A stretch of 37,047 nucleotides of DNA from Thermoproteota archaeon (GTDB taxonomy: Archaea; Thermoproteota; Bathyarchaeia; Bathyarchaeales; Bathycorpusculaceae). Below the pieces are notes generated by a model, which saw only the letters and a program-made list of their open reading frames with translations, made no database searches and was not told the DNA's origin. The first letter of the stretch is position 1. Every line of letters starts with the position of its first letter. A program made the position numbers and the translations under genes. Below, piece after piece: positions 416 through 28,639 of the stretch. The stretch is from NCBI GenBank assembly GCA_012513715.1, contig JAAZBP010000070.1, positions 1 through 37,047 of the forward strand, given 5' to 3'.

Positions 416-3298
416 TTATTCAACATATATTGCTGGTTGGTACGGCATAGCCATAGACGCACGACGTTTAGGATCAAACCGGTCCGCATCATCTTCACTG
501 TACACATCAATTTCGGCGTTGAAACGGTTTTTCAAGAATAATAAAGATTCTTCTAGGATAAATTGTTCATTTATGATCCGTATTTTTTGCATATTTGATT
601 TACGTATTCCTGACACTTTTGTTAAAGCTTTGATAACCCGTGGAACCATATTCGCTACTTCTTTCATATGAGGTTTCAAATCTTTATTCGCTGCAAATTC
701 CTTCATTAATTCGTTTATCTTTACTTCTCCGGTTAATGTTTTTTCTAAAATTTTGAGGTACAAATCCCATTTCCATGACGCTGGTGTATAGTAACATATT
801 CTTGTTGGTGTTATCTTCATGGCTTTCAAGATGTTGTTGGTATCTGCCATGATGTCTGTTATCAGATTTTCTTGTTCCTCTGAAGCAGCATCAACTTTGG
901 AGTCATCAAAAAGTGGCCAGTTAGCTACGCTGATAAAGCCGTCTTCACCTGTTCGACTCCATAGTTCCTCACATAAGAAAGGCGCAAAAGGAGCAAGCAT
1001 CTTTAACCAATCCTTCACAGCTTCCACCAATGCTTTTGTATTGCAGTTACCTTTACGTTGAATGTACCATCTAAGATCATTCCAAGTTTCAAACAAAGCT
1101 GTTTGAAGTGCTGTACGTGTTTTAAGTTCATCCAAACTTGATGTTACTTCTTTAATACGACATTGCATACGACTAGTAAGCCAACGTTCAAGAGCTGTAT
1201 TTTCAGCAATTTGATCTGATGATATTATGTTTCCGGCGAAACCCATCAAAGCTTCAAACTTTGTTTTTAAGTCAGTAACGTTTTCCGCTCGCCAGTCAGG
1301 GTCATCCATACCCTCAGCGCCCAGCAATAGAGCACATCTTGTAGCGTCAGCCCCATATTTTTCGACAGCGCCTTTTAGGGTTATGAAGTTACCTTTGCTC
1401 TTATGCATACCTTGCCCCTCCACCATTAACATACCGTTTACGCCTATGGCTCTTGGCCAGAGTTCAGGTGGGAAAAGTGCAGCGTGGTGGAATATACAAA
1501 AAGAGAGGTGATTGGGTACAAGCTCTTTAGCTGAATTGCGTAAGTCAAATGGATACCAATATAGGAATTCTTTACGCATTTCTTCAAGTAAATCAGAATG
1601 TATACCAGAATCTGCGCTTACCTGGTTTTGGTTACCTTTTCCCAAGAAAATATAATCAAATACTTCAGGGGTAAGTGATTCAGGTTTGATGCTATTTTGT
1701 TTGATGTGTTTGTTTATTGTGTAAAATGCCATGTATAGTGTTGAGTCACTTAATGTTTCGATAATCCAGCCTTTGCCCCAGGGTAAAGGGGTTCCGAAAC
1801 CTGTTGTTCTTGCACATGCCCATTCACGTAGCCAATCAATAACGGTGTTGAACCAGGGTTTGGCTGAATCAGGATAAATATTCATTTGATCTACAACTTG
1901 CTTAGCAAGTTCTTTCCATTTGGGATCAGAATAGTTAAGAAACCACTGATCTGAAAGAATCTTTACGATACATTGTGTCATACACCTGCAAAATACTGGT
2001 TCAGATAGATCATACATGCTGTCGGTTAAGCCTGATTTGCGAAAATCACTGATCAAGAGGTCTTTTGCTTCGCGAATTGTTTTTCCGGCGTATTGGCCAC
2101 AATTTGCTTTCAAGATTCCGCTGTGAAACTCTTTTTTGTATAATTCTTTGGTTGCCTGATCAGCTGCAGGATCATTTTGATCTTTTATTTTCATTTTGTC
2201 TACAATTTCAACTGCCGGATGATCTCCGAAGCCTTCAACAGTGATAATTGAAATAGGCTGGATAGCTTTGACCATTTCTGAATCTATCCCGAATTGAGAT
2301 AGAGTTTCTGGTTTCTGCTGTAGATCCCGTAAGGCTAACCAATCGTATGGTGCATGCGCTGGTACACTATACACTACACCAGTGGCTGTTTTTGGGTCCA
2401 CAAACCAACCTGGTAAAATTGGAAACTTTAGTTTTGTAACTGGATTTTCAAATGTTTTTCCTATTAGTTCCTTGCCTTTGAAATTGCGTTTAACTTCAAT
2501 TTTGCGTTCTTGCTCTTTGAGTTTTTCAGCTGCTTCTTGGCTGATTACCCAGTTTTCCCCGTTAACAATAGCTTCAACATATGTTGCGTCTGGGTTAATC
2601 CAGATGTTAGTGAGCCCATAAACTGTTTCAGGTCTAAAGGTTGCAGCTGGCAAAACTGATTGATCGTCTAATCTGTACTTGATTAGCGTGTATTCCTCAG
2701 GGGTTACTCCTTCTCCACTTTGTCTGTCATGGTCGCCTGTTGGGCTCTGATCTTTTGGGCACCATACAACAGGGTGGGTTCCCCGTGTAACAAAACCTTT
2801 TTCTTTTAAGTTCTTGTATTGCCACTCAATAAATTTCTGATAAGTAGGTAATACAGTAGTAAAATCTCGGCGCCAATCCACTGAAAAACCTACACTTTTA
2901 GCTGCTAAACGACCTTCACTAGTATAGTATTGAGCCATATAGAGGGGGTCAACAAACTTGTTAAGTTCCTCTTCAGGTACCCCATCGACTTCCCTGAGAA
3001 CACGAATGTATGCTTGGTCGCCTCGTGCTACACGTTGGCTTGCGCCTAGCAAAGGTTGTCCTGTCCAGTGCCAACCCCAAGGCCAAAGTACGTTGTAACC
3101 CTGCATCCGCTTAAATCTAGCGTAAGCGTCTACTCTAGAGGCAGTAAATGTGTGACCTACGTGTAGTGGACCATTCATGTATGGGTAGGGAAAGGTCACC
3201 AATTTTTTTTCTCGTTTTGAGTCAGGGTCAGCTTCGAAAAGATGGGCGTTTTCCCATTTAGCTATCCATTTCTGCTCCATTTCCTTGGTTTGGCTCAT
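416..3298 (-). CDS. leuS: Leucyl-tRNA synthetase, archaeal type
   Basis: Charges tRNA-Leu with leucine in the cytoplasm. The 960-residue length fits the archaeal/eukaryal LeuRS class. The class I signature HVGHT (HIGH equivalent) is at residues 46-50 after PYPYMNGPL, and KSKGN (KMSKS equivalent) is at 633-637. Between them lies the large CP1 editing insertion, with the TFRPETVYGLTNIW stretch typical of the editing pocket. The anticodon-binding helical domain and a C-terminal extension follow. The start is ATG with a weak AAAGG upstream. The gene stands alone on the minus strand, with the small RNA gene downstream and a divergent protease upstream. All key motifs are intact. Very sure. Confidence 0.97.
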   Translation of the reverse strand: MSQTKEMEQKWIAKWENAHLFEADPDSKREKKLVTFPYPYMNGPLHVGHTFTASRVDAYARFKRMQGYNVLWPWGWHWTGQPLLGASQRVARGDQAYIRVLREVDGVPEEELNKFVDPLYMAQYYTSEGRLAAKSVGFSVDWRRDFTTVLPTYQKFIEWQYKNLKEKGFVTRGTHPVVWCPKDQSPTGDHDRQSGEGVTPEEYTLIKYRLDDQSVLPAATFRPETVYGLTNIWINPDATYVEAIVNGENWVISQEAAEKLKEQERKIEVKRNFKGKELIGKTFENPVTKLKFPILPGWFVDPKTATGVVYSVPAHAPYDWLALRDLQQKPETLSQFGIDSEMVKAIQPISIITVEGFGDHPAVEIVDKMKIKDQNDPAADQATKELYKKEFHSGILKANCGQYAGKTIREAKDLLISDFRKSGLTDSMYDLSEPVFCRCMTQCIVKILSDQWFLNYSDPKWKELAKQVVDQMNIYPDSAKPWFNTVIDWLREWACARTTGFGTPLPWGKGWIIETLSDSTLYMAFYTINKHIKQNSIKPESLTPEVFDYIFLGKGNQNQVSADSGIHSDLLEEMRKEFLYWYPFDLRNSAKELVPNHLSFCIFHHAALFPPELWPRAIGVNGMLMVEGQGMHKSKGNFITLKGAVEKYGADATRCALLLGAEGMDDPDWRAENVTDLKTKFEALMGFAGNIISSDQIAENTALERWLTSRMQCRIKEVTSSLDELKTRTALQTALFETWNDLRWYIQRKGNCNTKALVEAVKDWLKMLAPFAPFLCEELWSRTGEDGFISVANWPLFDDSKVDAASEEQENLITDIMADTNNILKAMKITPTRICYYTPASWKWDLYLKILEKTLTGEVKINELMKEFAANKDLKPHMKEVANMVPRVIKALTKVSGIRKSNMQKIRIINEQFILEESLLFLKNRFNAEIDVYSEDDADRFDPKRRASMAMPYQPAIYVE

Positions 3299-3449: not shown

Positions 3450-4301
3450 CTGAAAAAAATATTTGTGGTAATGATATTCTTATTGTTGGTTGCGCTTTGT
3501 TCATCTTTAGTAAACAACACAACTTTCGGAATTACGGGCAACTATACCGCTGATTCAACAGGTTACGTCGGAGTTGTCGTCCTTTTCAGTGACACAGACA
3601 GAACTGAACTAAGAGGTTACGCTACGGGTTTTTTGATTTCTTCGAGAGTGATGATTACTGCTGGTCACAATTTAATAGAACCAACAGCAGCAGTAAGCGT
3701 TTGTTTTGATGATGGACCAATCCCATACGAAATTGATGAAGAGGGAAAAATTGTGGATTTCGACGCAGACAAAATTTATGAAGCAGACAGATTCGAGGTA
3801 TATCCAAAATATATCCCAACATTAGCAGGCAACCAAGAATTCGCCACAAGCGATATCGGCATAATCATCTTGAAGGAAGAAGTCGATGGATTTACCGATT
3901 TCCATTTATTATTACCTGAAGAAAATTTTGCAGACACTTTATCAGCTAAAACAGATTTACGCGTAATAGGGTATGGTCTGCAATACCAAGTTACTCCGAA
4001 AAAGAATCCAGAAAACTCGTGGGTGGGCACTGTATCACGGAACTCTGCAATAGTCCAACTTGTGAATAACAACTTTGCAGGCGGCGACAAATACCTTAAA
4101 TTAACAGCCAACAACGGCCAAGATAGAGGCGGAATCACATTTGGAGACTCCGGCGGACCAGTAATATATAGTTCGGATGAAGGAGAAATGGTGTTAGCTG
4201 TTAACGCATTTGTTTCAAGTGACAACTGTCGCGGAGTATCATACCACACTAGACTAGATGTACAACAAGTTCAAGAGTGGATCAATGGATATTTGGAATA
4301 A
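3450..4301 (+). CDS. Secreted trypsin-like (S1/V8-type) serine protease
   Basis: A 283-residue secreted endopeptidase of the chymotrypsin fold. The triad is visible: His73 in ITAGHN, Asp135 in TSDIGI and Ser234 in FGDSGGP. The first GTG in frame (3465) would cut into the signal peptide and sits 22 nt from any Shine-Dalgarno. A CTG at 3450 has AAAAGGAGA ending 7 nt before it and yields MKKIFVVMIFLLLVAL, a textbook secretion signal (n-region KK plus hydrophobic core). I therefore choose CTG; an in-frame TAA lies just before it. A short peptide gene follows 28-37 nt downstream, then a prenyl-synthase-like gene. The protease could process the exported peptide or be a general extracellular enzyme. 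Secreted S1 proteases are uncommon in archaea, so transfer from bacteria is possible. The family call is firm; the partner role is inference. Confidence 0.9.
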   Translation: MKKIFVVMIFLLLVALCSSLVNNTTFGITGNYTADSTGYVGVVVLFSDTDRTELRGYATGFLISSRVMITAGHNLIEPTAAVSVCFDDGPIPYEIDEEGKIVDFDADKIYEADRFEVYPKYIPTLAGNQEFATSDIGIIILKEEVDGFTDFHLLLPEENFADTLSAKTDLRVIGYGLQYQVTPKKNPENSWVGTVSRNSAIVQLVNNNFAGGDKYLKLTANNGQDRGGITFGDSGGPVIYSSDEGEMVLAVNAFVSSDNCRGVSYHTRLDVQQVQEWINGYLE

Positions 4302-4329
4302 AATTATACTAACAAAAAATAGAGGAGAG

Positions 4330-4389
4330 GTGAAAAAATTGAACAAAAAAATAATCAAAGCAAAACCAGCTTTAACAGGATGGTATTAA
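4330..4389 (+). CDS. Short peptide gene ending GWY, candidate modified-peptide precursor
   Basis: An ORF of 16 codons from TTG (4339), or 19 from GTG (4330): MKKLNKKIIKAKPALTGWY. The strong Shine-Dalgarno GAGGAGAGG (4322-4330) sits 8 nt before the TTG, which makes TTG the better start (MNKKIIKAKPALTGWY). The peptide is a basic leader-like half followed by Lys-Pro-Ala-Leu-Thr-Gly-Trp-Tyr at the very C-terminus. A stem-loop and T-run follow directly, so it could be a small abundant transcript. Downstream are a prenyl-synthase homologue, an MFS transporter and a radical SAM/SPASM enzyme, the classes expected of a peptide-maturation locus. Trp is the residue prenylated in ComX pheromones, and a C-terminal Tyr is the residue modified by the mycofactocin maturase. 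It could also be a chance ORF; the RBS and setting argue against that. Confidence 0.5.
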   Translation: MKKLNKKIIKAKPALTGWY

Positions 4390-4423
4390 AAACCATACAA
4401 AGACACATATTTTTTCCTTTTTT
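4380..4423 (+). terminator. Stem-loop plus T-run after the peptide gene
   Basis: ATGGT (4380-4384) and ACCAT (4392-4396) form a 5-bp stem across the last codons and stop of the peptide gene, followed by a T-rich tract at 4410-4423. It would end or attenuate transcription before the synthase-like gene. TTTATAGTAAATA at about 4421-4433 can serve as a TATA box for that gene. Confidence 0.4.
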
Positions 4424-4476
4424 ATAGTAAATAAACAAATAAGCTTATCGCACAGAAATGTTTTAAGGTTTAATGT

Positions 4477-5472
4477 ATGTCAACGGACCGCAAAATTAGG
4501 GCAATTAAGAGAAGATTTAATCAACTAGGAATAGAAGCTATGGAGAATGCACGGAGACATATATCTTCAAAATACAATGATAACAGTGATTTGTCAGAGG
4601 CACTACGCTACTTCAATTCGGTGACTCTGAGCGATGCTTTACCAGTTTTTCCAGCATTGATTAGTCTGGCATGTAAAGCAGTTGGGGGTAGAATAGAAAA
4701 TATTAATTCTTGGGGAAAAGCTATTGTATTAATTAGCGCAGCAGCTGATTTACATGATGATGTAATAGACAACTCAATTATGAAAAAAAATAAACAGACT
4801 GTTTTCGGAAAATTTGGTCTTACGACAACGATTCTTTCAGGAGATGTGTTGCTTGTTGAGGGTATTATGATATTAAGTGAAGCTGGCAAACAGATTTCAC
4901 AAGATAAAGCCTGCAAAGTTATGAAGGAAGTTTCAGACGCTGTATTTGAAATATGCCGTGGAGAAGTTTTGGAGTCTCAGCTTCGTAAGATTGAGAATTT
5001 ACAACCCGAAGAATATCGAGAAGTAGTTAATCTTAAAGCGGTTGTTCCAGAATTGGCTATGAAAATAGGTGCTACGGTAGGTAATGGAAATTCAGAGGAG
5101 ATTGAAAAGCTTGGGCAATTTGGTAGAGTATATGGAATAACTTCAATTATGATAGAAGAATTTGTAGACCTTCTAGAAATTGATGAACTTAATAACCGGT
5201 TAAAGAATGAGTGCCTTCCGGCCCCTATAATATATGCAATTCAAGATGAAAAAATAAAAAAGATGGTAAAAAAAATTCTGGCAAATCAACCTGTGAATAA
5301 AGATGTTCATGAAAAAATTGTAGACATCGTCCTTGAATCTAAAGAAGTTGTTAACCTCGAAAAACGTTTGATTTTGGATGCTAAACAAGCGATTAGCCAA
5401 TTGACGAGTATTAACAAAAAAACCAGAGAAGAACTAGAAAAAATTTTACTAGTTCCTCTCAACTATTTTTGA
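4477..5472 (+). CDS. Divergent isoprenyl-diphosphate-synthase-like protein
   Basis: A 331-residue all-helical polyprenyl-synthetase fold. The first aspartate-rich motif is intact (DLHDDVID, Asp94, Asp95, Asp98) and is followed by FGKFGLTTTILSGDVLL, the usual allylic-site region. The Arg-Arg normally after the motif is replaced by lysines (MKKNK). The second aspartate-rich motif, DDxxD in true synthases, reads EEFVD (227-231) and is followed by LLEIDEL and KNECLPAPIIYA. From memory, EFxD with NECLP recurs in a group of archaeal homologues, so this looks like a distinct subfamily and not decay. ComQ, which prenylates the ComX peptide, is also an IPPS-fold protein with a modified second motif. 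It sits between a peptide gene and MFS/radical SAM genes. A peptide prenyltransferase role is inference; ordinary isoprenoid synthesis is the alternative. Confidence 0.85.
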   Translation: MSTDRKIRAIKRRFNQLGIEAMENARRHISSKYNDNSDLSEALRYFNSVTLSDALPVFPALISLACKAVGGRIENINSWGKAIVLISAAADLHDDVIDNSIMKKNKQTVFGKFGLTTTILSGDVLLVEGIMILSEAGKQISQDKACKVMKEVSDAVFEICRGEVLESQLRKIENLQPEEYREVVNLKAVVPELAMKIGATVGNGNSEEIEKLGQFGRVYGITSIMIEEFVDLLEIDELNNRLKNECLPAPIIYAIQDEKIKKMVKKILANQPVNKDVHEKIVDIVLESKEVVNLEKRLILDAKQAISQLTSINKKTREELEKILLVPLNYF

Positions 5473-5518
5473 CAGGTTTTTAGTACCAACCTGTTAATCG
5501 AATTATACCGTTTTTTTT
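5472..5518 (+). terminator. Hairpin and T-run after the synthase-like gene
   Basis: ACAGGTT (5472-5478) pairs with AACCTGT (5488-5494) around a 9-nt loop. A run of eight T lies at 5511-5518. It follows the TGA at 5470-5472 and probably ends most transcripts before the MFS gene. Confidence 0.5.
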
Positions 5519-5668
5519 CATAAAGCCCACACCTTTCGTGTATTATTGTTGTACACACATACTTTAAAACTTTTTTGTTCTTTAATAGTTTTAAATTACA
5601 CCAAAAAATCCTCAATCCTTAATTTGATGGAAGCACAATAGCTATCACTCAGGTAGATGCGTTAGCAG

Positions 5669-6976
5669 ATGAACACACCGCCAAACGGTACAAAAAAAAC
5701 GACGGCTATAGCCAACATAATAATAGTCGCTAACGCTTTTATCTGGTATCTAATAGCTTTTAACATGATAAGAGGATCTCTTTCTAATATTAACGCAACC
5801 ACACATGAGACACTTTTAATAATAGGCATAAACACCGGGGCTATTGTAATATCAGGACTAATCGGTTCTTTTTTATTTGATAAATTTAAGAGCCGAAGCA
5901 AATTCCTGTTCTATTGGATAGCAATTGGAGCCATACTGTCAATTCTTCCCTTAGGATTGGAAATTTCAAATTTAATGCACATCACAATTATTTCCTTTAT
6001 TTTTGGGGTATATTTCGGAATAGGTATGCCAGCAACAATGGGACAACACGCGATAACCACTAAAATCGAAGAAAGAGCAAAATTTGGAGGCTTTGCTTTT
6101 CTCATAATTGGAATGATTTTTTCAGTTACTGGATTAATAATTTTTGATAATATAATAATTAGTTGCATAATATTGGGATTAGTTAGAGTATCAGGCTTAG
6201 TGATATTCTATTTTTTAAGAAAAGAGGGCAAAACAGTTTATGAAAAGGAAAATGTTAAATATACAACAATTTTGTCAAATAGATCTTTCTTTTTTTATTT
6301 TATCCCTTGGTGCATGTTCACACTTGTAAATTACATGGCGATGCCAATTCAAACTTCAATTTTTTCAACAGAACTAAATATAAATACACTTATGGCCGCA
6401 GAGTACGTTATCACAGCCATATTTGCAGTAATTAGCGGTTTTATTGCTGATAAAATAGGACGTAAAAGACTAGCCATAATTGGTTTTATTATGTTAGGGA
6501 TAGGTTATGCAGTTAATGGACTTTTTTCAGGTTCAAACATATTTCTAACTAGTATAATATACATAGTTGCTGATGGAATAGCTTGGGGAATTTTCTATGT
6601 GTTGTTTATTTTTACAATATGGGGTGACCTTGCAAATGAAAAAGCTGCAGACAAAATTTACTTTTTAGGTGTTTTACCATATGTGTCTTCATATTTTATG
6701 CAACTACTTCTTCATCCTTATTTAGCAGGGATACAGAAAGAGATGATTTTCTCCTTTGCTAGTGTTTTTCTGTTTCTTGCGGTTTTACCTTTGATATATG
6801 CACCTGAAACGTTGCCTGAAAAGATTATGAAAGATAGAGACCTTAGAAGTTATATTGAAAAAGCAAAAAAGAAAGCTGCACAAGACGCTGAAAAAGGAGC
6901 AAAAAAGCCAATTACAAAAAACAAAAAAGAAGATGAATATCAAGAAGCTAAAAAGCTTGCAGAAAAATACTATTAA
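5669..6976 (+). CDS. MFS transporter
   Basis: A 435-residue major facilitator with about 12 hydrophobic segments and a lysine-rich cytoplasmic tail (from about residue 385, with EKAKKKAAQDAEKGAKK). The loop between helices 8 and 9 contains GFIADKIGRKRL, the MFS motif A-like D-x-x-G-R-K/R pattern; FDKFKSRSKF in the first half is a weaker copy. Substrate is not readable from sequence. It precedes the radical SAM gene by only 25 nt, so the two are probably co-transcribed. In the proposed peptide pathway it would be the exporter of the modified peptide or an importer of a signal; both are inference. No Shine-Dalgarno precedes the ATG, and another ATG at 5657 hits a stop two codons on. Confidence 0.9.
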   Translation: MNTPPNGTKKTTAIANIIIVANAFIWYLIAFNMIRGSLSNINATTHETLLIIGINTGAIVISGLIGSFLFDKFKSRSKFLFYWIAIGAILSILPLGLEISNLMHITIISFIFGVYFGIGMPATMGQHAITTKIEERAKFGGFAFLIIGMIFSVTGLIIFDNIIISCIILGLVRVSGLVIFYFLRKEGKTVYEKENVKYTTILSNRSFFFYFIPWCMFTLVNYMAMPIQTSIFSTELNINTLMAAEYVITAIFAVISGFIADKIGRKRLAIIGFIMLGIGYAVNGLFSGSNIFLTSIIYIVADGIAWGIFYVLFIFTIWGDLANEKAADKIYFLGVLPYVSSYFMQLLLHPYLAGIQKEMIFSFASVFLFLAVLPLIYAPETLPEKIMKDRDLRSYIEKAKKKAAQDAEKGAKKPITKNKKEDEYQEAKKLAEKYY

Positions 6977-7001
6977 GTACAATGTAATTTAAGGTAAAAA
7001 C

Positions 7002-8132
7002 ATGTTCTTCCATTTGATGCTAACTAGTGACTGTAACCTGCAATGCAAGTACTGTTTTGGAGAGAGTTTAGATGACTTTGCCGAAGATTTCGGCGAAGAA
7101 CTAGAAGTAGACTATAATTTACCTCATAGCGTGAACTATGACTTGTCTTTGCTTGAACGGTTTTGTCGTCAAGACCCTGAATGTGTGTTAACATTCTATG
7201 GTGGAGAACCATTGCTCCAGATGGATAAAATCCGTCAGATAATGAATAAGATTGAACCTGAACATTATATGATTCAGACTAACGGTTTGCTCTTAGACAA
7301 ACTTGAATCAGAATATGTCAACCGCTTCCACACAATTTTAGTATCTATAGATGGGGAAGAATCTGTAACGGACTATTATAGAGGTAAAGGTACCTTCAGA
7401 AAAGTAGTTGATAATTTAAAAATCATAAAAAATAATGGCTTTAACGGTGAATTGATTGCTCGTATGACTGTAATGGAGCAAAATGATGTTGAAAAGCAGG
7501 TTAAATGGTTACTGAATAATGATGAATTCTGTTTTTCGTCGGTTCATTGGCAACTGAATGCTGGTTTCTGGGGAAACGATTATCAGAGGCGTAGCTTTGA
7601 GGAATGGACTAAAACAAGTTATATTCTAGGTGTTGATGAACTCGCAGATTTTTGGGTTGAACAGATGGCACAGAATGGTGTAGTGCTTAAACTTTACCCG
7701 TTATTAGGCATAGCAAACTCACTTTTACATAAAGAAAAAACCAGTTTAATGCGATGTGGCGCGGGATGGATAAACTACGCCATCCAAACTGATGGTAACA
7801 TTATTCCTTGCCCAACAATGTGGGGTATGAAAAGATATTATTTAGGAACCATAAAAAATTCTAGTCCATTAGCACTCAAAAAAATTTTTGTTAACCAGAA
7901 ACCCTGTAATGATTGCAAAATATTGGATGTCTGTGGTGGTCGTTGTCTCTATGCTAATATAACTAAGAGATGGCCTGACGAGGAATACAGTAAAGTATGT
8001 TACACTGTCAAAAGATTAATCGATGCTGTAGAAAAAAATGTGCCCACTATTGAAGAATTAATCAGAAAGGGCAAAATTAGTTTAGAAGATTTTGACTATA
8101 TGAAATATAACGGAGCAGAAATTATTCCGTAA
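7002..8132 (+). CDS. Radical SAM/SPASM enzyme, putative peptide-modifying
   Basis: A 376-residue radical SAM protein. The [4Fe-4S]-SAM motif CNLQCKYC (Cys11, Cys15, Cys18) is at the extreme N-terminus, and FYGGEPLL is the SAM-binding GGE motif. The C-terminal part has the auxiliary-cluster cysteines of a SPASM/twitch domain: RCGAGW, IIPCPTMWG, CNDCKILDVCGGRC and a final VC. This layout matches the archaeal family I remember as AF1577-like, annotated as putative peptide-modifying radical SAM enzymes; I could not check that. An AAGG lies 7-10 nt before the ATG. It is the last gene of the plus-strand block. SPASM enzymes typically cross-link, decarboxylate or epimerise peptide residues, and the 4330-4389 peptide is the natural substrate candidate. 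Confidence 0.9.
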   Translation: MFFHLMLTSDCNLQCKYCFGESLDDFAEDFGEELEVDYNLPHSVNYDLSLLERFCRQDPECVLTFYGGEPLLQMDKIRQIMNKIEPEHYMIQTNGLLLDKLESEYVNRFHTILVSIDGEESVTDYYRGKGTFRKVVDNLKIIKNNGFNGELIARMTVMEQNDVEKQVKWLLNNDEFCFSSVHWQLNAGFWGNDYQRRSFEEWTKTSYILGVDELADFWVEQMAQNGVVLKLYPLLGIANSLLHKEKTSLMRCGAGWINYAIQTDGNIIPCPTMWGMKRYYLGTIKNSSPLALKKIFVNQKPCNDCKILDVCGGRCLYANITKRWPDEEYSKVCYTVKRLIDAVEKNVPTIEELIRKGKISLEDFDYMKYNGAEIIP

Positions 8133-11165: not shown

Positions 11166-11327
11166 CTTTCAAATTGAAAACGAATATAGATAAAAAAATC
11201 TACAGCGAAAAAACACAAACAACTATCATCTTTTTTTAAGGCATATTGAATTCAAACAGAGCGCAGAAACTCCTTTAAATGCATCGGGATTATTGTACCG
11301 TTTAAGATAAAGGGGGCTGTGGCTAAG

Positions 11328-14315
11328 ATGGAGCAGAACAACAATAATTCTATAGATACCTTAGTAAAAAACATGAAGCCAGCCCTGAGTACAGAAGAAA
11401 TTGCTAGTTTATCAAGTGAAGAAGTTGTAAAATATTTTAATACCTCACAAAATGGTTTAAGCTCTGAACAGGCAGCAGAACGCCTAGAATATTACGGTCC
11501 TAATGAATTAGCACGTCAACATAAACATTCGGCAATCAAAGAGTTCTTGTTGCATTTTAAAAGCCCTTTTGTCATTATTCTTTTGATCGCAGGAATAGTT
11601 TCTGGTTTTTTAGGTGAAATCGCTAACACCATAATTATTTTAGTTATTATCTTTGTCAGTGTAATTCTTGGTTACTATCAAGAAAATAAAGCTGAAAAAG
11701 CAGCTCAATTATTAAAACAAAAAGTAACTTCAACTGCAACTGTAATACGTGACAGCATCAAACAAGAGATCAAATTCCCCGAGATAGTACCAGGAGACAT
11801 AATATATCTCTCAGCAGGAGACATAGCTCCTGCAGATGCTAGAGTTATCAGCGCAAAAGACTTATTCATAAACCAATCTGCACTTACTGGAGAATCATTT
11901 CCAGTTGAAAAAATTTCTGGAGCTATAAAAGGTAAACAAAACTCGACTTCCGAGTGGAATAATTATTGTTTTATGGGCACCTCTGTTGTCAGCGGTTCAG
12001 CAACAGCTGTAGTAGTTAAAACAGGTGGAGCAACCGAATATGGTAAAATAGCTAAAAAACTTATGGAGAAAACTCCAGAAACCGAGTTTGAAAGAGGAAT
12101 CAAGGGTTTTGGTTTCCTTATTATGCAAGTCACTTTTTTGCTAGTGATTTTTGTATTCATGACGATATCTCTACGCAATCCAACAGAGATGGGTGTTATA
12201 GAGGCTTTACTTTTTGCTGTAGCATTAGCGGTTGGGCTAACACCTGAATTGTTGCCCATGATCATAACAATTAATCTATCTCGAGGCGCAATGGCTATGT
12301 CCAAAAAAGAAGTCATAGTCAAACGTCTTTCTGCTATAGAAAATTTTGGCAGTATGAACGTATTATGCACTGATAAAACAGGTACATTAACTGAGAACAG
12401 AATTAAACTTGTGTTAAACGTAAACCTTGAAGGTGAAGAAGACAAGAAAGTCTTTCTAAATTCATTCCTGAACAGCAATTTTCAAACTGGACTAAAAAGT
12501 CCTTTAGATGAAGCAATACTAAAACATAAAGAGATAGACGTATCTAAATACAATAAAATTGATGAAGTACCTTTTGATTTTATACGAAGACGTGTTTCAG
12601 TTGTAGTAGAAGAGTTAGGTCAAAGATTTTTTGTAGCTAAGGGCGCACCTGAAGAGATAATGAAAGTCTGCTCATATTACGAGCAGAGAGAAGTGATAGC
12701 TGATCTCAATGAAGAAGCGCAAAAAAATATTTTACAGAAATACGATGAATACAGTGCCAGAGGCTTACGTGTTTTAGGTGTAGCATACAAAAGACTCAAA
12801 GAAGAGAAAAAGACCTACTCAATAAACGACGAAGTAGACATGATCTTTTTAGGTTTTGTAGCTTTTCTTGATCCACCTAAAGAGACAGCTAAGCAATCAC
12901 TTCAACTTTTAACCAGAGCAGGCATCGAATTAAAAATATTAACAGGCGATAATGAACTTGTCACAAGAAAAGTCTGTGAAGACCTAGGGTTAGAAATTAA
13001 GGGGATAGCAGTAGGCAACGATTTAGCAAACAAAACTGATGAAGCTTTAATGGCAATTGTTGAGGAAGCAAATGTATTTTGCCGTGTAAACCCGATTCAG
13101 AAAGACCGTATAATAAGTTTACTCAAAACAAATGGACATGTTGTAGGATACATGGGTGATGGAATAAATGATGCACCTTCACTAAAAAATTGTGACGTGG
13201 GAATTTCTGTCGATAATGCTGTAGATGTAGCTAGAGAATCAGCTGATATTATTCTCTCAAAAAATGACCTGACGGTTCTCGCAGAAGGAGTCTTTGAAGG
13301 ACGAAAAACCTTTGGAAACACAATGAAATATATTATGATTGGAGTAAGCTCAAACTTTGGCAACATGTTTAGTGTTGCAGGAGCAGCTATATTCCTAACA
13401 TTCCTGCCTATGTTGCCTGTCCAAATTTTATTAAACAATTTACTTTACGATATATCTCAGTCTACAATAACAACTGACAAAGTTGATGAAGAATACATTG
13501 AACGCCCAAAACGTTGGGATATGACCTTCATTAAACGTTTTATGATTTCTCTTGGACCAGTCAGCTCCATATTTGACTTCTTAACCTTCTTTATAATGCT
13601 GTATATTTTCAACGCTGGACCAGCTTTATTCCGTACAGCATGGTTTGTGGAGTCAATAATTACAGCAGTAATAGTCGTATTTGTAATTAGAACTAGACGA
13701 AGACCCTTCTGGAAAAGCAAACCAAGCAGATATTTGATATTCAGTAGCATAGCAATAATTGTATTTGCTTTGATAGTACCCAACACCCCGCTTGGACAAA
13801 TATTTGGTTTTGTTCCACTTCCACCGTTATTCTTTGGAATCTTGATACTGATCATCGGAGCTTACGTAATCTTAGCGGAAGTCATTAAAGGGTACTTCTA
13901 TAAGAGACATGCATATCGCCTTGAGCAGGTTCTGGTGCCCAAAAGAGCGTTATATGTTACGAAAACTGCTAAACTCATGCAGGACATGATAGCAGCGATA
14001 AGTCTTCGTAGCGAAGATGAATTTACAATAGAATCATTAAACGACGACCTTAATCACGCACTAAGTTACCCGATAAACTTCAACCAAGTGGCAAGAAACC
14101 TACAATATCTGAGACGTTCAAACCTAATCAGCGTAGATTGGAAAGAGAGAACAATAAAACGTGAAACATCATTATCCGAATACGTTCAGAAAAGCATCAT
14201 AAATGGACCTATGTGGGAAAAAATAAGTAACGAGTGGCTTAGAATAAACAATTTACTGCTAAATAAATATGGCACGGTCAATACTGAATACGAAGATTTA
14301 CTACCAAAACAATAA
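11328..14315 (+). CDS. mgtA: MgtA-type Mg2+ P-type ATPase with C-terminal winged-helix tail
   Basis: A 995-residue P3B-type ATPase that imports Mg2+. Present are the TGES loop (LTGESFPVEK), the M4 motif VGLTPELLPMI characteristic of MgtA/MgtB, the phosphorylation motif DKTGT (Asp349), KGAPEEIM in the nucleotide domain, and the hinge GDGINDAPS. Bacterial MgtA is about 900 residues; here about 120 extra residues follow the last membrane helix. They read as helices ending in INFNQVARNLQYLRRSNLIS and a basic strand (VDWKERTIKR), a winged-helix pattern. I use ATG 11328: AAAGGGGG (11309-11316) is 11 nt away, against 2 nt for the GTG at 11319. TTTAAAT near 11274-11280 is a likely TATA box. The enzyme call is sure; the tail call is moderate. 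Confidence 0.93.
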   Translation: MEQNNNNSIDTLVKNMKPALSTEEIASLSSEEVVKYFNTSQNGLSSEQAAERLEYYGPNELARQHKHSAIKEFLLHFKSPFVIILLIAGIVSGFLGEIANTIIILVIIFVSVILGYYQENKAEKAAQLLKQKVTSTATVIRDSIKQEIKFPEIVPGDIIYLSAGDIAPADARVISAKDLFINQSALTGESFPVEKISGAIKGKQNSTSEWNNYCFMGTSVVSGSATAVVVKTGGATEYGKIAKKLMEKTPETEFERGIKGFGFLIMQVTFLLVIFVFMTISLRNPTEMGVIEALLFAVALAVGLTPELLPMIITINLSRGAMAMSKKEVIVKRLSAIENFGSMNVLCTDKTGTLTENRIKLVLNVNLEGEEDKKVFLNSFLNSNFQTGLKSPLDEAILKHKEIDVSKYNKIDEVPFDFIRRRVSVVVEELGQRFFVAKGAPEEIMKVCSYYEQREVIADLNEEAQKNILQKYDEYSARGLRVLGVAYKRLKEEKKTYSINDEVDMIFLGFVAFLDPPKETAKQSLQLLTRAGIELKILTGDNELVTRKVCEDLGLEIKGIAVGNDLANKTDEALMAIVEEANVFCRVNPIQKDRIISLLKTNGHVVGYMGDGINDAPSLKNCDVGISVDNAVDVARESADIILSKNDLTVLAEGVFEGRKTFGNTMKYIMIGVSSNFGNMFSVAGAAIFLTFLPMLPVQILLNNLLYDISQSTITTDKVDEEYIERPKRWDMTFIKRFMISLGPVSSIFDFLTFFIMLYIFNAGPALFRTAWFVESIITAVIVVFVIRTRRRPFWKSKPSRYLIFSSIAIIVFALIVPNTPLGQIFGFVPLPPLFFGILILIIGAYVILAEVIKGYFYKRHAYRLEQVLVPKRALYVTKTAKLMQDMIAAISLRSEDEFTIESLNDDLNHALSYPINFNQVARNLQYLRRSNLISVDWKERTIKRETSLSEYVQKSIINGPMWEKISNEWLRINNLLLNKYGTVNTEYEDLLPKQ

Positions 14316-21787: not shown

Positions 21788-21904
21788 ATGCCTTTGAATG
21801 TAAAAATTAAAATTGAATATAGCAAACGCGCTTTATCATATTCCGGAATTACAAAATTCAACAAAAAATACGAAGTATATCTGAAGCACCTAAATTTTGA
21901 TTAA
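21788..21904 (+). CDS. Short leaderless ORF before the helicase
   Basis: A 38-codon ORF, MPLNVKIKIEYSKRALSY and on to LKHLNFD, beginning about 25 nt after the TATA-like TTTTTATATTAAT, as expected for a leaderless message. Its last 8 nt overlap the helicase TTG. It is either a true first cistron feeding ribosomes into the helicase by coupling, or the separated N-terminus of the helicase. An A8 tract near 21950-21957 would be a slip site, but the TAA at 21902 lies before it. No homologue is recognised. Confidence 0.4.
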   Translation: MPLNVKIKIEYSKRALSYSGITKFNKKYEVYLKHLNFD

Positions 21905-23780
21905 TATTCTACAATATCAGAGGCTGAAAGTTACGTCCCGAAAAGTGAAGAAAAAAAATGAGGAAATAGAAAAAAACAGTTTATGTTATGAATTTGGAGA
22001 GGAAAAAAACGAAAACAGATATTTTTTTTCCTATTCAGACAGTAATGATATTAGGAAATTAATCCAGAAAAACAATTTTTCAACGTTTCAGAAGTTTCGG
22101 CTTAATTTAGAAGCCCTACAAATAAAACAGACAGATAGAATCGACCGGTTAATAGCCGTTAACGCCATACGAACAAAACTTACTCCGTACAATTTTCAAA
22201 TGCATACTGCACTTCAAGTAATTAATGAGATGAATGTAAATGCAATTCTCGCTGACGAAGTAGGTCTCGGCAAAACAATAGAGGCAGGACTAATAATGAA
22301 AGAGTTGGTTCTTAGAGGAGAAATCGACTCAATTTTAATCTCAACCCCGAAAAGTCTAGTAACACAATGGAAAAGTGAAATGAACGAAAAATTTGGAGAG
22401 ACTTTCTCCATAACAAATAAACCAGGGGAACGTGTTAACCTAAAGAAAGATAACAGAATAATATGTTCACATAATCTTTTACTTACCAAATTTGATCAAC
22501 TATCTGATCGAACATGGGACCTTATAGTAGTTGATGAAGCTCACGCATTTAGGAACACTCACAGCAAAGGTAGAACATGCATAGCAAATCTGAGAAAAAA
22601 ACATCTGTTGCTTTTAACTGCAACTCCGCTATGCAACAAACTTACCGACTTGTATAGTATTGTAGACTTAATTCAGCCAGGTATTCTTGAAAGTGAACGT
22701 GCTTTTGTCTCGCGTTTTGCAGAAGACTCCCGAAGTAGAGTTATCAGACCTAATGAAGTGAATAATTTAAGGCGGACAATAAAAGAGGTAATGTGTAGAA
22801 CTCGTAGGGAACAAACAGGTATTCCATTTACCAACAGGTGTGTAGAGACTAGAACTCTTGAAGCTACAACAAATGAACGTGAATTCATTGATGAAGCGAC
22901 TGAATATCTGCGAGATATGAGTAAAAACCATTTTAAGACAATAGAAACGTTAATTGCAGAAAACCCTTCTAGAAAAATTAGTTTATCCCAAAGCAACGCT
23001 ATACTAGTTTTTCAGGCAATTACACTTCAACAGTCATTTTCTAGTTCTCCATATGCAGCAATCCAATCTTTAAAGAAAAGACAGGAAAGGTTCCCTGCTG
23101 AAGCGGATGTTGCAGAAAGATTAATTGAGATGGCATCCAAGGTTAAAAGTGCAAAAATTGAGTTGCTTAAGAATATTATAGGGGATATCCCCCGTGAACA
23201 AGCTCTTATTTTCTGCTTAAGAAAAATTACAGCTCACAAAATCAAAGAAGTTTTGGAGAGGGAATTTGGAAAGGCAGAAACTTATCTGGGTGATATGGAT
23301 CAGATTGAAAGAGAAAAAACAATTAAAAACTTCAAAAATGGAGAAACAAAATATCTTATTGCAACTGACGCAGCAGCTGAAGGGCTAAACCTGCAGAATT
23401 GCTGTATAATGTTTAATTATGATTTACATTGGAACCCGATGAAAATCGAACAAAGAATAGGCAGAATTCACAGATTTCAACAGGACAGAGACGTTACAGT
23501 TTTCAACTTAAGCGTTAAAGATACTATCGATGATTACGTTTTACACATTTTATACCAAAAGATAGATTTGTTCACTATGACTATCGGCAAGATGGAAACA
23601 GTTCTAGCTGAACTAAAAGACGGCGCTCAAGATATTCAGAGGACAATTGGGGAAATTTTGCTTAGAAGCAATTCTCGTTTGGATATAAAAAGAGAATTAG
23701 AAAGACTATCTAATGATCTTAATGCTTCAAGAGAAAAACAGGAATTAGCTGAAAAATTCACGCAGGGGGTAATTGACTGA
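21897..23780 (+). CDS. SNF2/RapA-type DEAH helicase
   Basis: A 627-residue superfamily 2 ATPase. The motifs are motif I ILADEVGLGKTIEAGLIMKE, motif II VVDEAHAF, motif III LLTATPL, and in the second RecA domain YLIATDAAAEGLNLQ (V) and PMKIEQRIGRIHRFQQ (VI). Wording and order match the RapA/HepA branch of SNF2 proteins, which translocate on double-stranded DNA and displace proteins. The TTG start lacks a Shine-Dalgarno and overlaps the short ORF upstream, so the N-terminus is uncertain. Its stop overlaps the CTG start of the next gene. With a zinc-ribbon protein and an Mrr-like protein behind it, a defence or repair role is inferred. Confidence 0.9.
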   Translation: MINILQYQRLKVTSRKVKKKNEEIEKNSLCYEFGEEKNENRYFFSYSDSNDIRKLIQKNNFSTFQKFRLNLEALQIKQTDRIDRLIAVNAIRTKLTPYNFQMHTALQVINEMNVNAILADEVGLGKTIEAGLIMKELVLRGEIDSILISTPKSLVTQWKSEMNEKFGETFSITNKPGERVNLKKDNRIICSHNLLLTKFDQLSDRTWDLIVVDEAHAFRNTHSKGRTCIANLRKKHLLLLTATPLCNKLTDLYSIVDLIQPGILESERAFVSRFAEDSRSRVIRPNEVNNLRRTIKEVMCRTRREQTGIPFTNRCVETRTLEATTNEREFIDEATEYLRDMSKNHFKTIETLIAENPSRKISLSQSNAILVFQAITLQQSFSSSPYAAIQSLKKRQERFPAEADVAERLIEMASKVKSAKIELLKNIIGDIPREQALIFCLRKITAHKIKEVLEREFGKAETYLGDMDQIEREKTIKNFKNGETKYLIATDAAAEGLNLQNCCIMFNYDLHWNPMKIEQRIGRIHRFQQDRDVTVFNLSVKDTIDDYVLHILYQKIDLFTMTIGKMETVLAELKDGAQDIQRTIGEILLRSNSRLDIKRELERLSNDLNASREKQELAEKFTQGVID

Positions 23781-25144
23781 ATACGAAAACGGACAATACA
23801 AAAATCTTCAAGTTTCTCAGAGAATATGTAAAAACTAAACAAGGCAACATTACTCAGCAAGAAAACGAAGTAATTAAAGTAACATTCCAAAATGGTAAGC
23901 CGCCTATAATATACACTTTTCAACCAGATGTTTCAAGAAAGAAAAAAATTCCGCTTATCGCATTGGGAAGCCCTACTTTCCAAGAGATACTTAGAGAATG
24001 TTTAGAAAACGGTATTCTATCTCAGATAATAGTTAATCCGAAACCGGACATTGAAACATATCTAAAAAACCGTTTTGCATATTCATCGTCTTCCTGTGCA
24101 GGCTGTGAAGAAGTGATTTTAGGAAACAAAGGAATAGGAATATGTGTAAAACCTCAACCATGTTATCATATTATTAATAATGGAAACATTACAGAAATAA
24201 AAAATTTAAACAAAAAGTCAGTCAGGTTTTTCCAGTTTTATTTTTTAATTTCATTCCATAACAAACTTAAACCAAAGAGTGAAGAAGTAATCACTATACT
24301 TATTGATGAAAAAAGCAATATTGTAAAAATTGGAGAATTAAACGAGGACCAAATAGTAAAAAATAACGAATTAGAAATAGATGATGTCAAAGGAAAAATT
24401 AAACCTAAAGTATTTGATGATTTATGGAAAGTTGCTGATTTAAAAATAGAAGAAATAATTAAGGCAAAACTACTTCTTTTTGATTTACAGTTAATTAAAG
24501 AGAAAAAGGCCAAACTAAAAAATTTTGATAAAAGACTCAGAAGAGAAAGACGTGAGCAATTAATCTCAAAAAAGATTGATTTCAACTTTCAAAGGTGGCA
24601 AACTAACTATGAGTCTCTTTTGAGAAGAGAAGAAGAGTCATACATAACTAATGTTAAGGTTAAACTTGTTAACTTGTTGATAGTTAACACTATTGAAGTG
24701 AAGTTTGAAGCAAACTTGAGCAATAATTCAAGGGTACATTCATCATTAACTTTAGGTGTTAATGAATCAGTTGAGATTAATTGTCCAATATGCAAAAATA
24801 CCTTCTCTGAAGGTTATGCCACAGAGGACGCATTGTACGTTTGTGAAAAATGTATTAAACAATCGGTTGATACAGGAAAAATCTACTCTAAAAAAGCAAC
24901 TTTGACTCTTGACCCAGTCCTAAAGGAATACATTGAACCTGAAGCAGGCTTTGTATGTTCGGTATGTGGAAAAAAGTATAGCAAGCTACTTGAATACAAA
25001 TGCAGTTATGACAATACAAGTGTATGTATACACCATTATGGATTTTGCGATATATGTGGAGAAACTTTTTCAAAACTTAATCTTTCATATACAGACGAAT
25101 TCAAAAGTCAATTATGCCCAAAACATGCAACTAAAAATAGTTAA
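23777..25144 (+). CDS. Multi-zinc-ribbon protein of unknown function
   Basis: 455 residues from a CTG start, not recognised as a known family. The CTG overlaps the helicase TGA (CTGA), and AGGGGG (23764-23769) lies 7 nt before it. A start at TTG 23963 would discard 62 residues that read as good protein (VKVTFQNGKPPIIYTFQPDV). Cys-rich sites: CAGCEEV and CVKPQPC in the N-terminal third, and at the C-terminus CPICKNTF, CEKC, CSVCGKKY and CDICGETF, suggesting at least three zinc sites. The middle (about 200-290) is highly charged and helical. A coupled start with the helicase suggests a complex; binding to nucleic acid is a guess. Confidence 0.8.
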   Translation: MNTKTDNTKIFKFLREYVKTKQGNITQQENEVIKVTFQNGKPPIIYTFQPDVSRKKKIPLIALGSPTFQEILRECLENGILSQIIVNPKPDIETYLKNRFAYSSSSCAGCEEVILGNKGIGICVKPQPCYHIINNGNITEIKNLNKKSVRFFQFYFLISFHNKLKPKSEEVITILIDEKSNIVKIGELNEDQIVKNNELEIDDVKGKIKPKVFDDLWKVADLKIEEIIKAKLLLFDLQLIKEKKAKLKNFDKRLRRERREQLISKKIDFNFQRWQTNYESLLRREEESYITNVKVKLVNLLIVNTIEVKFEANLSNNSRVHSSLTLGVNESVEINCPICKNTFSEGYATEDALYVCEKCIKQSVDTGKIYSKKATLTLDPVLKEYIEPEAGFVCSVCGKKYSKLLEYKCSYDNTSVCIHHYGFCDICGETFSKLNLSYTDEFKSQLCPKHATKNS

Positions 25145-25155
25145 GGGAAACAAGA

Positions 25156-26088
25156 ATGGGTTATCAGAAATTTAATGGAATATTAAAAGAAGTACTTGAG
25201 CAGCAACTTATAGAGAGCTCCGAAGTTCTTCAAGATGCACTCCAGATTCCTTTAGACAAAGCAGAAGAGCTAACAAATAGAATAAAGCAAAAATACTGCT
25301 CAGAGAATGAAAAAAAAGAGAAGAAAATAGTAAAAAAACTTGTTAAGAAACAGGCAGATTCAAGTAAAAATAGGGTAAAAAAGAACTGTTACACTTCTTC
25401 TGTAGGTTATCTTTCTAATGAGGAATTTGAAAGGTTAATAGTTTGGTTATTTGAAGAATTGGAATATGAAGTTCAACCAGAATTACACAAGAGGTATCTG
25501 GGTTTTGATTTTGTTGTCCGGAAAGAAAGCGAAAAAATCGCGGTGTTAGCTAGAAAGTATTCTTCAGAATATAAGTTAACAAAAGCTATTTTAGATTTTT
25601 CAGAGAATGCACAGCGTGTCTATGATTGTACCAAATCAATTGTTGTAGCTACTACGTTTTTCACTGATGACGCAGTTTCCTATTCTGAAAATATGGGTGT
25701 AGAACTCTGGAATATAGAGACTATAGCTGAAAAAATCGAGCTAGCAAAAAGAAAAACTGAAGTACAAACGGAAAAGAATTTTCCTAAGTATAAAGGAACA
25801 CTTAAACATAGTCTTTTGAAGCTGGCAGACGAAAAAGATTTCGTAATTGAATCCCGAAATGATGGAGTATACGATTTATACTTGTTTGGAGTAAAGTATC
25901 CTTTATTGACTTTTCAAGCAGAATCAGAGGCTGTAACAAAATGTGTTTATAGAATACGTTACAATGAGCCTGTTGGAGAAAATGAAGGTGAAGTTTTAAT
26001 CAATAGCTACTATGACACAAGAGTTGGACCTGAAGACATGGAAGCTTATAAATTAATAATTGAATATCTTGAGCAGTTTTTAAAATAA
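25156..26088 (+). CDS. Mrr-like restriction-endonuclease-fold protein, altered active site
   Basis: 310 residues. After a basic helical N-terminus (1-78), residues 85-200 match the Mrr_cat layout: NEEFERLIVWLFEELEYEV, then GFDFVVRKESEKIAVLARKY, then VVATTFFTDDAVSYSENMGV and ELWNIETI. In Mrr the pattern is GxD followed by (E/Q)-x-K; here Asp118 is kept but the second part reads L-A-R-K (131-134), so cleavage may be lost or may use the shifted lysine. The C-terminal 100 residues are unfamiliar. It follows the zinc-ribbon gene by 11 nt and completes the three-gene operon. Likely DNA-binding or nuclease partner of the helicase. Confidence 0.75.
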   Translation: MGYQKFNGILKEVLEQQLIESSEVLQDALQIPLDKAEELTNRIKQKYCSENEKKEKKIVKKLVKKQADSSKNRVKKNCYTSSVGYLSNEEFERLIVWLFEELEYEVQPELHKRYLGFDFVVRKESEKIAVLARKYSSEYKLTKAILDFSENAQRVYDCTKSIVVATTFFTDDAVSYSENMGVELWNIETIAEKIELAKRKTEVQTEKNFPKYKGTLKHSLLKLADEKDFVIESRNDGVYDLYLFGVKYPLLTFQAESEAVTKCVYRIRYNEPVGENEGEVLINSYYDTRVGPEDMEAYKLIIEYLEQFLK

Positions 26089-26657: not shown

Positions 26658-27071
26658 TTATTTACATTGATTACAGTAGACGTACAATTCCAGATGTTGC
26701 CCTACAAGGGAAAGTTCCAGCTCTTTTGCTATTTCGGATAAGAACATGTTTATTTTTTCAGATTCATAGTCAATTATTTTTCCGCAGTTCTTGCATATCA
26801 AATTAAGGTGAGGGGAAATATTTGAGTCGTAACGAAGGCTTCCATTACAGAGCGCAAATTCCTGTAGTAATCCAATTTTTGTTAGTAAATGTAGTGTCTG
26901 GTAGATTGTAGCTAAACTAATTGTCGGGTATACCTTTTGGATTTTATCATAAATTTTCTCTACAGACGGGTGTTCCTTGCTAGAAAGAACAAACCTACAA
27001 ATTGCGAGACGTTGAGGTGTAACTTTGAAGCCTTTTTCTCTGAGCATTGTTATGAGCTGCTGATCGTTCAT
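26658..27071 (-). CDS. perR: Fur-family regulator, PerR-like
   Basis: A 137-residue metalloregulator. The N-terminal winged helix (GFKVTPQRLAICRFVLSSKE, then ISLATIYQTLHLLTKIGLL) and the metal-binding C-terminal domain (SPHLNLICKNCGKIIDYES and the final CNQC) are typical of Fur/PerR; the two CxxC pairs form the structural zinc site. Context favours PerR: catalase lies divergent and desulforedoxin downstream, and a PerR-like box sits in the divergent promoter. CTATTTTAAG (minus strand, 27096-27105) is about 29 nt before the ATG, suggesting a leaderless message. Fur proper is the alternative. Confidence 0.85.
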   Translation of the reverse strand: MNDQQLITMLREKGFKVTPQRLAICRFVLSSKEHPSVEKIYDKIQKVYPTISLATIYQTLHLLTKIGLLQEFALCNGSLRYDSNISPHLNLICKNCGKIIDYESEKINMFLSEIAKELELSLVGQHLELYVYCNQCK

Positions 27072-27130
27072 GAGAGTATATTAAAAAGGAGGCTGCTTAA
27101 AATAGTTTCTAACAAAAATAAATGTTTAAA

Positions 27131-27145
27131 TAATAATCATTATAA
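27131..27145. promoter_or_regulatory. PerR/Fur-like box in the catalase promoter
   Basis: TAATAATCATTATAA is a 7-1-7 inverted repeat differing from the bacterial PerR consensus TTATAATnATTATAA only at positions 2 and 3. It overlaps ATTATAAATT, the probable TATA box of catalase, and so would block TBP when bound. Confidence 0.65.
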
Positions 27146-27175
27146 ATTAGTTAACATTGTTAAGAAGGTTAATTT

Positions 27176-28639
27176 ATGAGTGACAAACCTCAAAAGAAAC
27201 TAACTACAGTTGCAGGTGCTCCAGTACCAGACAATCAAAACGCATTGACGGCAGGTCCAAGAGGACCTATGCTACTACAAGACGTGTGGTTCTTAGAAAA
27301 ACTTGCACACTTTGACAGAGAAGTGATCCCAGAAAGAAGAATGCACGCCAAAGGTTCAGGAGCTCACGGATTATTTACCGTAACTCATGACATTACAAAG
27401 TATACTAAAGCAAAGATATTCTCCGAAATAGGTAAAAAAACAGAAATGCTTGCTCGTTTCTCAACAGTCGCAGGAGAAAGAGGCGCTGCTGATGCTGAGA
27501 GAGATATCAGAGGCTTTGCTTTGAAGTTCTACACTGAAGAGGGAAACTGGGACTTAGTAGGCAACAACACTCCTGTGTTTTTCCTTCGCGATCCCTTAAA
27601 GTTCCCAGATTTGAATCATGCGATAAAACGTGACCCTAGAACAAATATGAGAAGCGCCAAAAACAACTGGGACTTCTGGTCGTCACTTCCTGAAGCTCTT
27701 CATCAAGTCACTATAACTATGAGCGATAGAGGTATCCCATATTCGTATAGGCACATGCACGGATTTAGCAGTCACACATTTAGTATGATTAACACTAAAA
27801 ACGAACTAGTCTGGGTAAAGTTCCACTTCGTTACCCAGCAAGGAATAAAAAACTTAACTGACGCAGAAGCTGAATCGATAGTTGCAAAAGACAGAGAAAG
27901 TTTTCAGCGCGATCTATACGAAAGCATTGAAAGAGGGGAATTTCCACGCTGGAAAATGTTCATTCAAGTCATGACTCAGGAACAAGCAAAGAAAATGCCA
28001 TATAACCCGTTTGATTTAACAAAAGTTTGGTATCATGCAGAATATCCACTGATAGAAGTTGGTTATTTTGAATTAAACCGCAACCCCGACAACTACTTTG
28101 CTGAAGTAGAACAGGCAGCATTTAATCCAGCTAATGTAGTTCCAGGAATAAGTTTTTCACCAGATAAAATGCTTCAGGGCAGATTATTCTCGTACGGAGA
28201 TGCTCAACGTTACAGATTAGGTGTTAACCACCATCAGATACCTGTGAATGCTCCACGTTGTCCAGTCAACAGTTATCATAGAGATGGCCAAATGAGGGTG
28301 AATAGTAACGCTGGTAGCACAATTGGATATGAGCCTAATAGCTATGGCGAGTGGCAAGAGCAACCAGACTATAAAGACCCGCCTTTAGAGTTAAGTGGTC
28401 CTGCATATCAATGGAATTTTAGAGAAGACGATAACGACTACTATACACAACCGAGAAAACTATTCAGGTTAATGAATCCGACACAGAAACAAGCCTTATT
28501 TGATAACACAGCACGTGCAATGGGAGATAGCCCAAAAGAAATCAAAGTGAGACATATCAGTAACTGTATGAAGGCTGACCCTGAATATGGGAAAGGTGTT
28601 GCAAAAGCAATGGGAATTCAGTTAAATGAAATCTCATAA
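27176..28639 (+). CDS. katA: Monofunctional heme catalase
   Basis: 487 residues, the small-subunit catalase size. Decomposes hydrogen peroxide in the cytoplasm. The active-site histidine is His57 in [12 protein letters not shown], the distal asparagine is in [12 protein letters not shown] (130/131), and the proximal heme ligand is Tyr340 in [19 protein letters not shown]-region and C-terminal residues also align by eye. An AGAAGG precedes the ATG. Divergent from the PerR-like gene, sharing the PerR-like box. Heme catalases are patchy in archaea and probably came from bacteria, which suits a habitat with oxygen exposure. Very sure. Confidence 0.97.

Follow-up and report, generated by a model that had tools for sequence, protein, structure and literature searches.

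A mobile, allelic cassette that probably encodes a peptide signal, an archaeal system resembling ComQ/ComX with prenylated micropeptides as its predicted product, lies in a 37,047-nt stretch of DNA (GCA_012513715.1, contig JAAZBP010000070.1, positions 1–37,047, forward strand; the whole stretch is referred to as the window). The best relatives of the genome, Candidatus Bathycorpusculum and other Bathyarchaeota metagenome-assembled genomes (MAGs), indicate an affiliation with the Bathyarchaeia. The family unit consists of an enzyme of isoprenyl diphosphate synthase (IPPS) fold, a short open reading frame (class-A micro-ORF) convergent to the enzyme gene, and a transporter of the major facilitator superfamily (MFS); it was found at ~94 curated loci, in the Bathyarchaeia and in a second lineage of their phylum. 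An earlier note on this DNA had described five plus-strand genes, for a protease, a short peptide ending in GWY, an IPPS-fold protein, an MFS transporter and a radical S-adenosylmethionine (SAM) enzyme, and all five were found where it had placed them.

The class-A micro-ORFs are genuine genes under selection at the peptide level. Their products of 10–22 residues have a basic N-terminus and an [I/V/P]R core, followed by a hypervariable tail of 2–9 residues; tails encoded between the IPPS-fold gene and the MFS gene include GAWW, GAWS, QLWS, VWG, FTI, ALPP and LWGTW. Cassettes located elsewhere in the genome, and those of other families, show the same pattern, and the peptides of the other lineage of the phylum are MKSYNPTPVRLWVPG, MKKYNPTPIRIWVPPLP and similar. 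Tryptophan is present in 74 of the 94 tails. Because the search pattern required the arginine, its invariance in the list is in part built in, although the first loci had already shown it before the pattern was fixed. The pattern was put in writing and run on 60 previously unused loci, with 100 dinucleotide shuffles as control. Matches preceded by a Shine–Dalgarno (SD) sequence were present on the convergent strand at 36 of these 60 loci and on the other strand at one, against a mean of 4.6 and a maximum of 11 in the shuffles; matches with tryptophan among the last six residues numbered 26, compared with 0.25 in the shuffles. Furthermore, loci L161 and L172 encode an identical 17-residue peptide although their codons differ at many synonymous sites; L209 and L214 form a similar pair, and the peptides of L110 and L111 (95% identical DNA) differ at two tail residues only (LYWR versus YFWR). 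The search proposed in the earlier note, for short ORFs conserved next to homologous genes, thus succeeded. Two tandem micro-ORFs of the YNPTPVRLWVPG type occupy one gap downstream of the IPPS-fold gene in L209, L210 and L211, as if the precursor were being amplified.

The window holds two micropeptide genes. The class-A micro-ORF MKKNGIIRLTGWY (5480–5521, minus strand; 13 codons, SD-like AAAGGTG), convergent to the IPPS-fold gene, had been overlooked; it has the same LTGWY end as the class-B micro-ORF MKKLNKKIIKAKPALTGWY (4330–4389, plus strand; GTG start, 19 codons, SD-like AGGAGAG upstream), for which an alternative TTG start at 4339 would leave 16 codons, the peptide ending in KPALTGWY. 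The 23 nt of DNA common to both ends do not occur elsewhere in the genome, with up to three mismatches allowed. Two relatives show the same arrangement, G007 with MNAKRIVQAKPATGGWY after the protease and MKANNKVIRTGGWY convergent, and G029 with MNKRVIRGKPITTGWY after the protease and MKKDNKLVRPTGWY convergent, and in each genome the last four to five residues of the two peptides match (LTGWY in the window, TGGWY and TGWY in the relatives). The short GWY gene already described is accordingly real, with syntenic ORFs after the same protease in both relatives. A GWY-ended short ORF as the sole search criterion returned few cases, and the general pattern surfaced only from reading the convergent gap. 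The proposal that modification takes place at Trp–Tyr specifically is too narrow: tails vary and 20 of 94 lack tryptophan.

The class-B micro-ORF accompanies a secreted trypsin-like (S1) serine protease (3450–4301, plus strand; Pfam Trypsin, E 3e-9; motifs TAGHN and GDSGGP), the start of which is uncertain between in-frame CTG at 3450, GTG at 3465 and ATG at 3471. Together they make up an accessory, type-B half of the cassette. In all eight protease-bearing loci a class-B micro-ORF directly follows the protease, which bears out the suggestion that the protease belongs with the peptide, enzyme and transporter. Class-B peptides have an [IV]xAK-like core and end in WY or WW; homologues after the same protease were seen in L082, L088, L114, L117, L188 and L206, and in L197 only with a near-cognate start. 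Both peptide classes are united in the single cassette of the window.

The MFS gene (5669–6976, plus strand; PF07690), a predicted peptide exporter, neighbours the IPPS-fold gene at 93 of 100 loci. Co-variation was examined in 13 genomes with all four of the genes for leucyl-tRNA synthetase (leuS; 416–3298, minus strand, in the window), the enzyme, the MFS protein and the radical SAM enzyme. Sequence identities of enzyme and MFS protein were strongly correlated (r 0.91), as were those of leuS and the radical SAM gene (r 0.87), while enzyme and radical SAM gene gave r 0.13. Likewise, tail similarity followed the enzyme (r 0.54, p 0.0004) and the MFS protein (r 0.50, p 0.0002), with r 0.00 against leuS and r 0.05 against the radical SAM gene. 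In L080 and L081, leuS is 88% and the radical SAM gene 91% identical, the enzyme only 35% and the MFS protein 38%, and DNA homology ends near the leuS start and returns ~70 bp before the radical SAM gene. Enzyme, transporter and tail have been exchanged together, as one block flanked by leuS and the radical SAM gene. The ComQXPA locus of Bacillus is exchanged in the same block-wise way.

This result bears directly on the radical SAM/SPASM enzyme (7002–8132, plus strand; TIGR04084, 314 bits, cut-off 225), which according to the earlier note also modifies the peptide, possibly yielding a redox cofactor. Its gene starts ~25 bp after the MFS gene in the window and in many relatives and may be co-transcribed, and the SPASM domain is typical of peptide-modifying enzymes. 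However, the gene is kept at sites where leuS and the radical SAM gene have no cassette between them (L079, L084 and L089), is missing from cassettes located elsewhere in the genome (L106–L118) and evolves with leuS, so that it is a neighbour rather than a part; like leuS, which flanks the cassette or the cassette-free site in relatives, we judge it to be a conserved flank. The linkage of maturase to precursor across genomes that marks SPASM systems for ribosomally synthesized and post-translationally modified peptides (RiPPs) was not seen for the TIGR04084 gene. Moreover, known cofactor precursors are conserved and class-A tails are hypervariable, which disfavours a redox-cofactor role. On cassette-free sites, cassettes elsewhere and co-variation the enzyme was ruled out as a component, and its action on the peptide has a very low probability. 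The TIGR04084 enzyme is ~70% identical across the order and present in most genomes of the genus; it probably has a basic function of its own. At the cassette-free sites of L079 and L084 (Bathycorpusculum MAGs) and L089, no close enzyme was found elsewhere in the genome either, an apparent loss of the cassette.

The IPPS-fold gene (4477–5472, plus strand; PF00348, E 6e-26) encodes a predicted peptide prenyltransferase. An AlphaFold2 (AF2) model of the enzyme (pLDDT 93.8) was matched by Foldseek to the archaeal geranylgeranyl diphosphate (GGPP) synthase 1wy0, which is the best match in both fold and sequence, and to Ord1 (9v4h). In comparison with 1wy0, the first Asp-rich motif, DDxxD, is kept in 94 of 94 enzymes and the equivalent of Lys-200 is K in 83 and R in 10. 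In contrast, the isopentenyl diphosphate (IPP) site GGKRVRP and the RRG motif of 1wy0 are both lost, the RRG being changed and the IPP-binding lysine kept in none of the 94, and the second motif has degenerated mostly to [DE][DE]xxD (EEFVD in the window), so that the GGKRxRP and second DDxxD motifs of canonical chain-elongating trans-isoprenyl diphosphate synthases (trans-IDS) are missing. Retention of the allylic-diphosphate site with loss of the IPP lysine is as expected of a prenyltransferase and not of a chain-elongating synthase; if so, the enzyme would still bind an allylic diphosphate, with IPP no longer the acceptor. In L106 and L107, and also in L171, two IPPS-fold genes stand in tandem ahead of one MFS gene, perhaps encoding a heterodimer.

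A further possibility is that the micro-ORFs are regulatory leader peptides acting by nascent-chain arrest, with an ordinary enzyme of isoprenoid synthesis as the IPPS-fold protein. Some ends (IRAGP, ALPP and AFPP) resemble known arrest ends, of which SecM RAGP is one. We nevertheless regard this as highly improbable: the class-A ORF faces the enzyme gene tail to tail, with no downstream gene to regulate, an orientation on which the arrest leader was rejected, the tails co-vary with the enzyme and the MFS protein, and the IPP lysine is lost throughout.

Among known systems, one of the closest parallels is ComQ/ComX of Bacillus ComQXPA, with an IPPS-fold enzyme beside the precursor gene, a tryptophan near the precursor C-terminus, an altered second Asp-rich motif and extreme variability between strains (PMC4008528, PMC10853753). 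The combination of an intact first and an altered second Asp-rich motif, by which ComQXPA enzymes are recognized, is present here, and the view of the earlier note that a short peptide, an atypical IPPS-fold enzyme with ComQ-like logic and the MFS gene form a unit is supported. Distinct communication groups (pherotypes) are described for ComQXPA (PMC4408185). The cassette differs in being archaeal, in its conserved arginine, in having no glutamine before the second motif and in its precursors, which have 10–22 residues and a tryptophan in 74 of 94 cases, whereas ComX precursors have 52–73 residues with tryptophan in the last 5–10. Furthermore, comQX is adjoined by genes for the histidine kinase ComP and the regulator ComA, and the cassette instead by an MFS gene and sometimes PadR or protease genes. 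The trans-IDS-like tryptophan prenyltransferases PalQ, which prenylates a C-terminal tryptophan, and ChrPC-P are also IPPS-fold peptide prenyltransferases (PMC10853753, PMC13290415); they are bacterial, and their known members are all Trp-specific with a conserved glutamine. Ord1 (PDB 9v4g-j), a free-Trp farnesyltransferase, shares the fold (TM ~0.73 to our model) but acts on free tryptophan, has the glutamine (the mutant Q216A has been solved) and is only 19% identical in sequence. That glutamine, preceding the second motif, marks the known IPPS-fold peptide prenyltransferases, all of which act on tryptophan (PMC13290415). With the glutamine missing from all 94 enzymes and tryptophan from 20 of 94 peptides, the cassette enzyme probably acts in the manner of ComQ but falls outside the Trp group described so far, and the conserved arginine, the sole residue common to class-A peptides, is a candidate acceptor.

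Expression of the class-A peptide appears to have its own control region. In the window, the region upstream of the micro-ORF (5522–5596, minus strand) contains a TATA-like TTTTAAAG and a conserved TGTACAACA..ATAC element. Across the 94 upstream regions, the 7-mer GTAGAAC occurs in 40 (0.8 expected) and the related GTTCAAC in 35 (0.45 expected), these elements sitting around the TATA-like box. A strict promoter pattern had one site per genome, at the cassette, in five of nine genomes searched; a wider regulon marked by the inverted repeat was rejected, as strict patterns gave a single site per genome where present. At 44 of 100 loci the enzyme gene is immediately preceded by a PadR-family gene, and our guess is that PadR binds the promoter element (TGTAGAACA..TGTTCTACA). 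The recurrent neighbours are MFS, PadR and protease genes, with no kinase among the recurrent clusters listed.

In the reading we favour, the IPPS-fold enzyme would prenylate micro-precursors of 10–22 residues with a Mg2+-bound allylic diphosphate, on tryptophan, if the tail contains it, or on the conserved arginine; the MFS protein would export the prenylated product, the secreted trypsin-like protease, where present, would trim it, and the result would be a pheromone-like signal specific to species or strain. The window would supply two precursors with the same LTGWY end. The hypervariable tail, the joint exchange of alleles and the dedicated promoter element point indirectly to such a role.

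The hypervariable product, the joint exchange of enzyme, peptide and transporter, and the presence of an MFS pump would equally suit a toxin with its immunity, namely a prenylated antimicrobial peptide (a bacteriocin-like RiPP) for which the MFS protein serves as exporter and self-immunity pump. Microcin C, with a micro-gene precursor and an MFS exporter, provides a precedent. We consider this unlikely, since an enzyme present in 50 of 109 genera, mostly in one copy and often at a fixed site, looks more like a core signal than a patchy weapon, and tails of 2–4 residues (FD, AGP, VTG) are very small for a toxin. A small toxin of a type I toxin–antitoxin pair was rejected by reasoning only, the peptides being very short, basic and not membrane-like.

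Several observations weigh against the prenylated-signal interpretation itself. Tryptophan is absent from 20 of 94 class-A tails (an example is the peptide MKRNTPIRALPP of L087) although the DDxxD of the enzyme is intact, and the glutamine typical of Trp-acting enzymes was found in 0 of 94, either in the aligned column or within two columns of it. Class-A calling involved curation by hand, 104 automatic calls being reduced to 94 after ten were removed by eye as false. Three loci have no called class-A peptide: L158 and L160, in which no candidate was found, and L166, where a promoter element is followed by the frame KRRVIIRVKL with no usual start codon. The exporter role of the MFS protein is a prediction, and the cassette was found to contain neither a receptor nor a two-component system.

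Within the class, the enzyme subfamily occurs in 94 of 257 genomes, representing 50 of 109 genera, and it is also present in the second lineage; the cassette is usually single copy and often occupies one fixed site. A search of IMG/VR found no relative of the enzyme, and neither enzyme nor protease had a PHROG match; a virus-borne origin was rejected on these negatives. Our searches of the open-licence literature turned up neither a described peptide pheromone of archaea nor an archaeal IPPS-fold peptide prenyltransferase. It is possible, if rather doubtful, that two lineages of one phylum share an archaeal pheromone system in which an IPPS-fold enzyme that does not belong to the known Trp prenyltransferases lipidates ribosomal micropeptides, with the conserved arginine and not tryptophan as acceptor in at least part of the family. 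If the signal reading is right, uncultured Bathyarchaeia would have a concrete, testable signal, and ~90 predicted pheromone types would be catalogued. The lipidating enzymes would gain a new branch, whose acceptor residue may also be new, and the micro-genes would represent a class that ordinary gene calling is liable to overlook.

Elsewhere in the window, consecutive genes at 21897–26088 for an SNF2-type helicase (DrmD/BrxH/ZorD-like in PADLOC), a zinc-finger-like protein and an Mrr-type restriction endonuclease may form an unclassified defence operon. By eye, a P-type ATPase of 998 aa (11319–14315) carries a C-terminal extension past its last membrane segment that is atypical of a pump, and a catalase gene diverges from that of a Fur/PerR-like regulator (26658–28639), an odd find in a presumed strict anaerobe.

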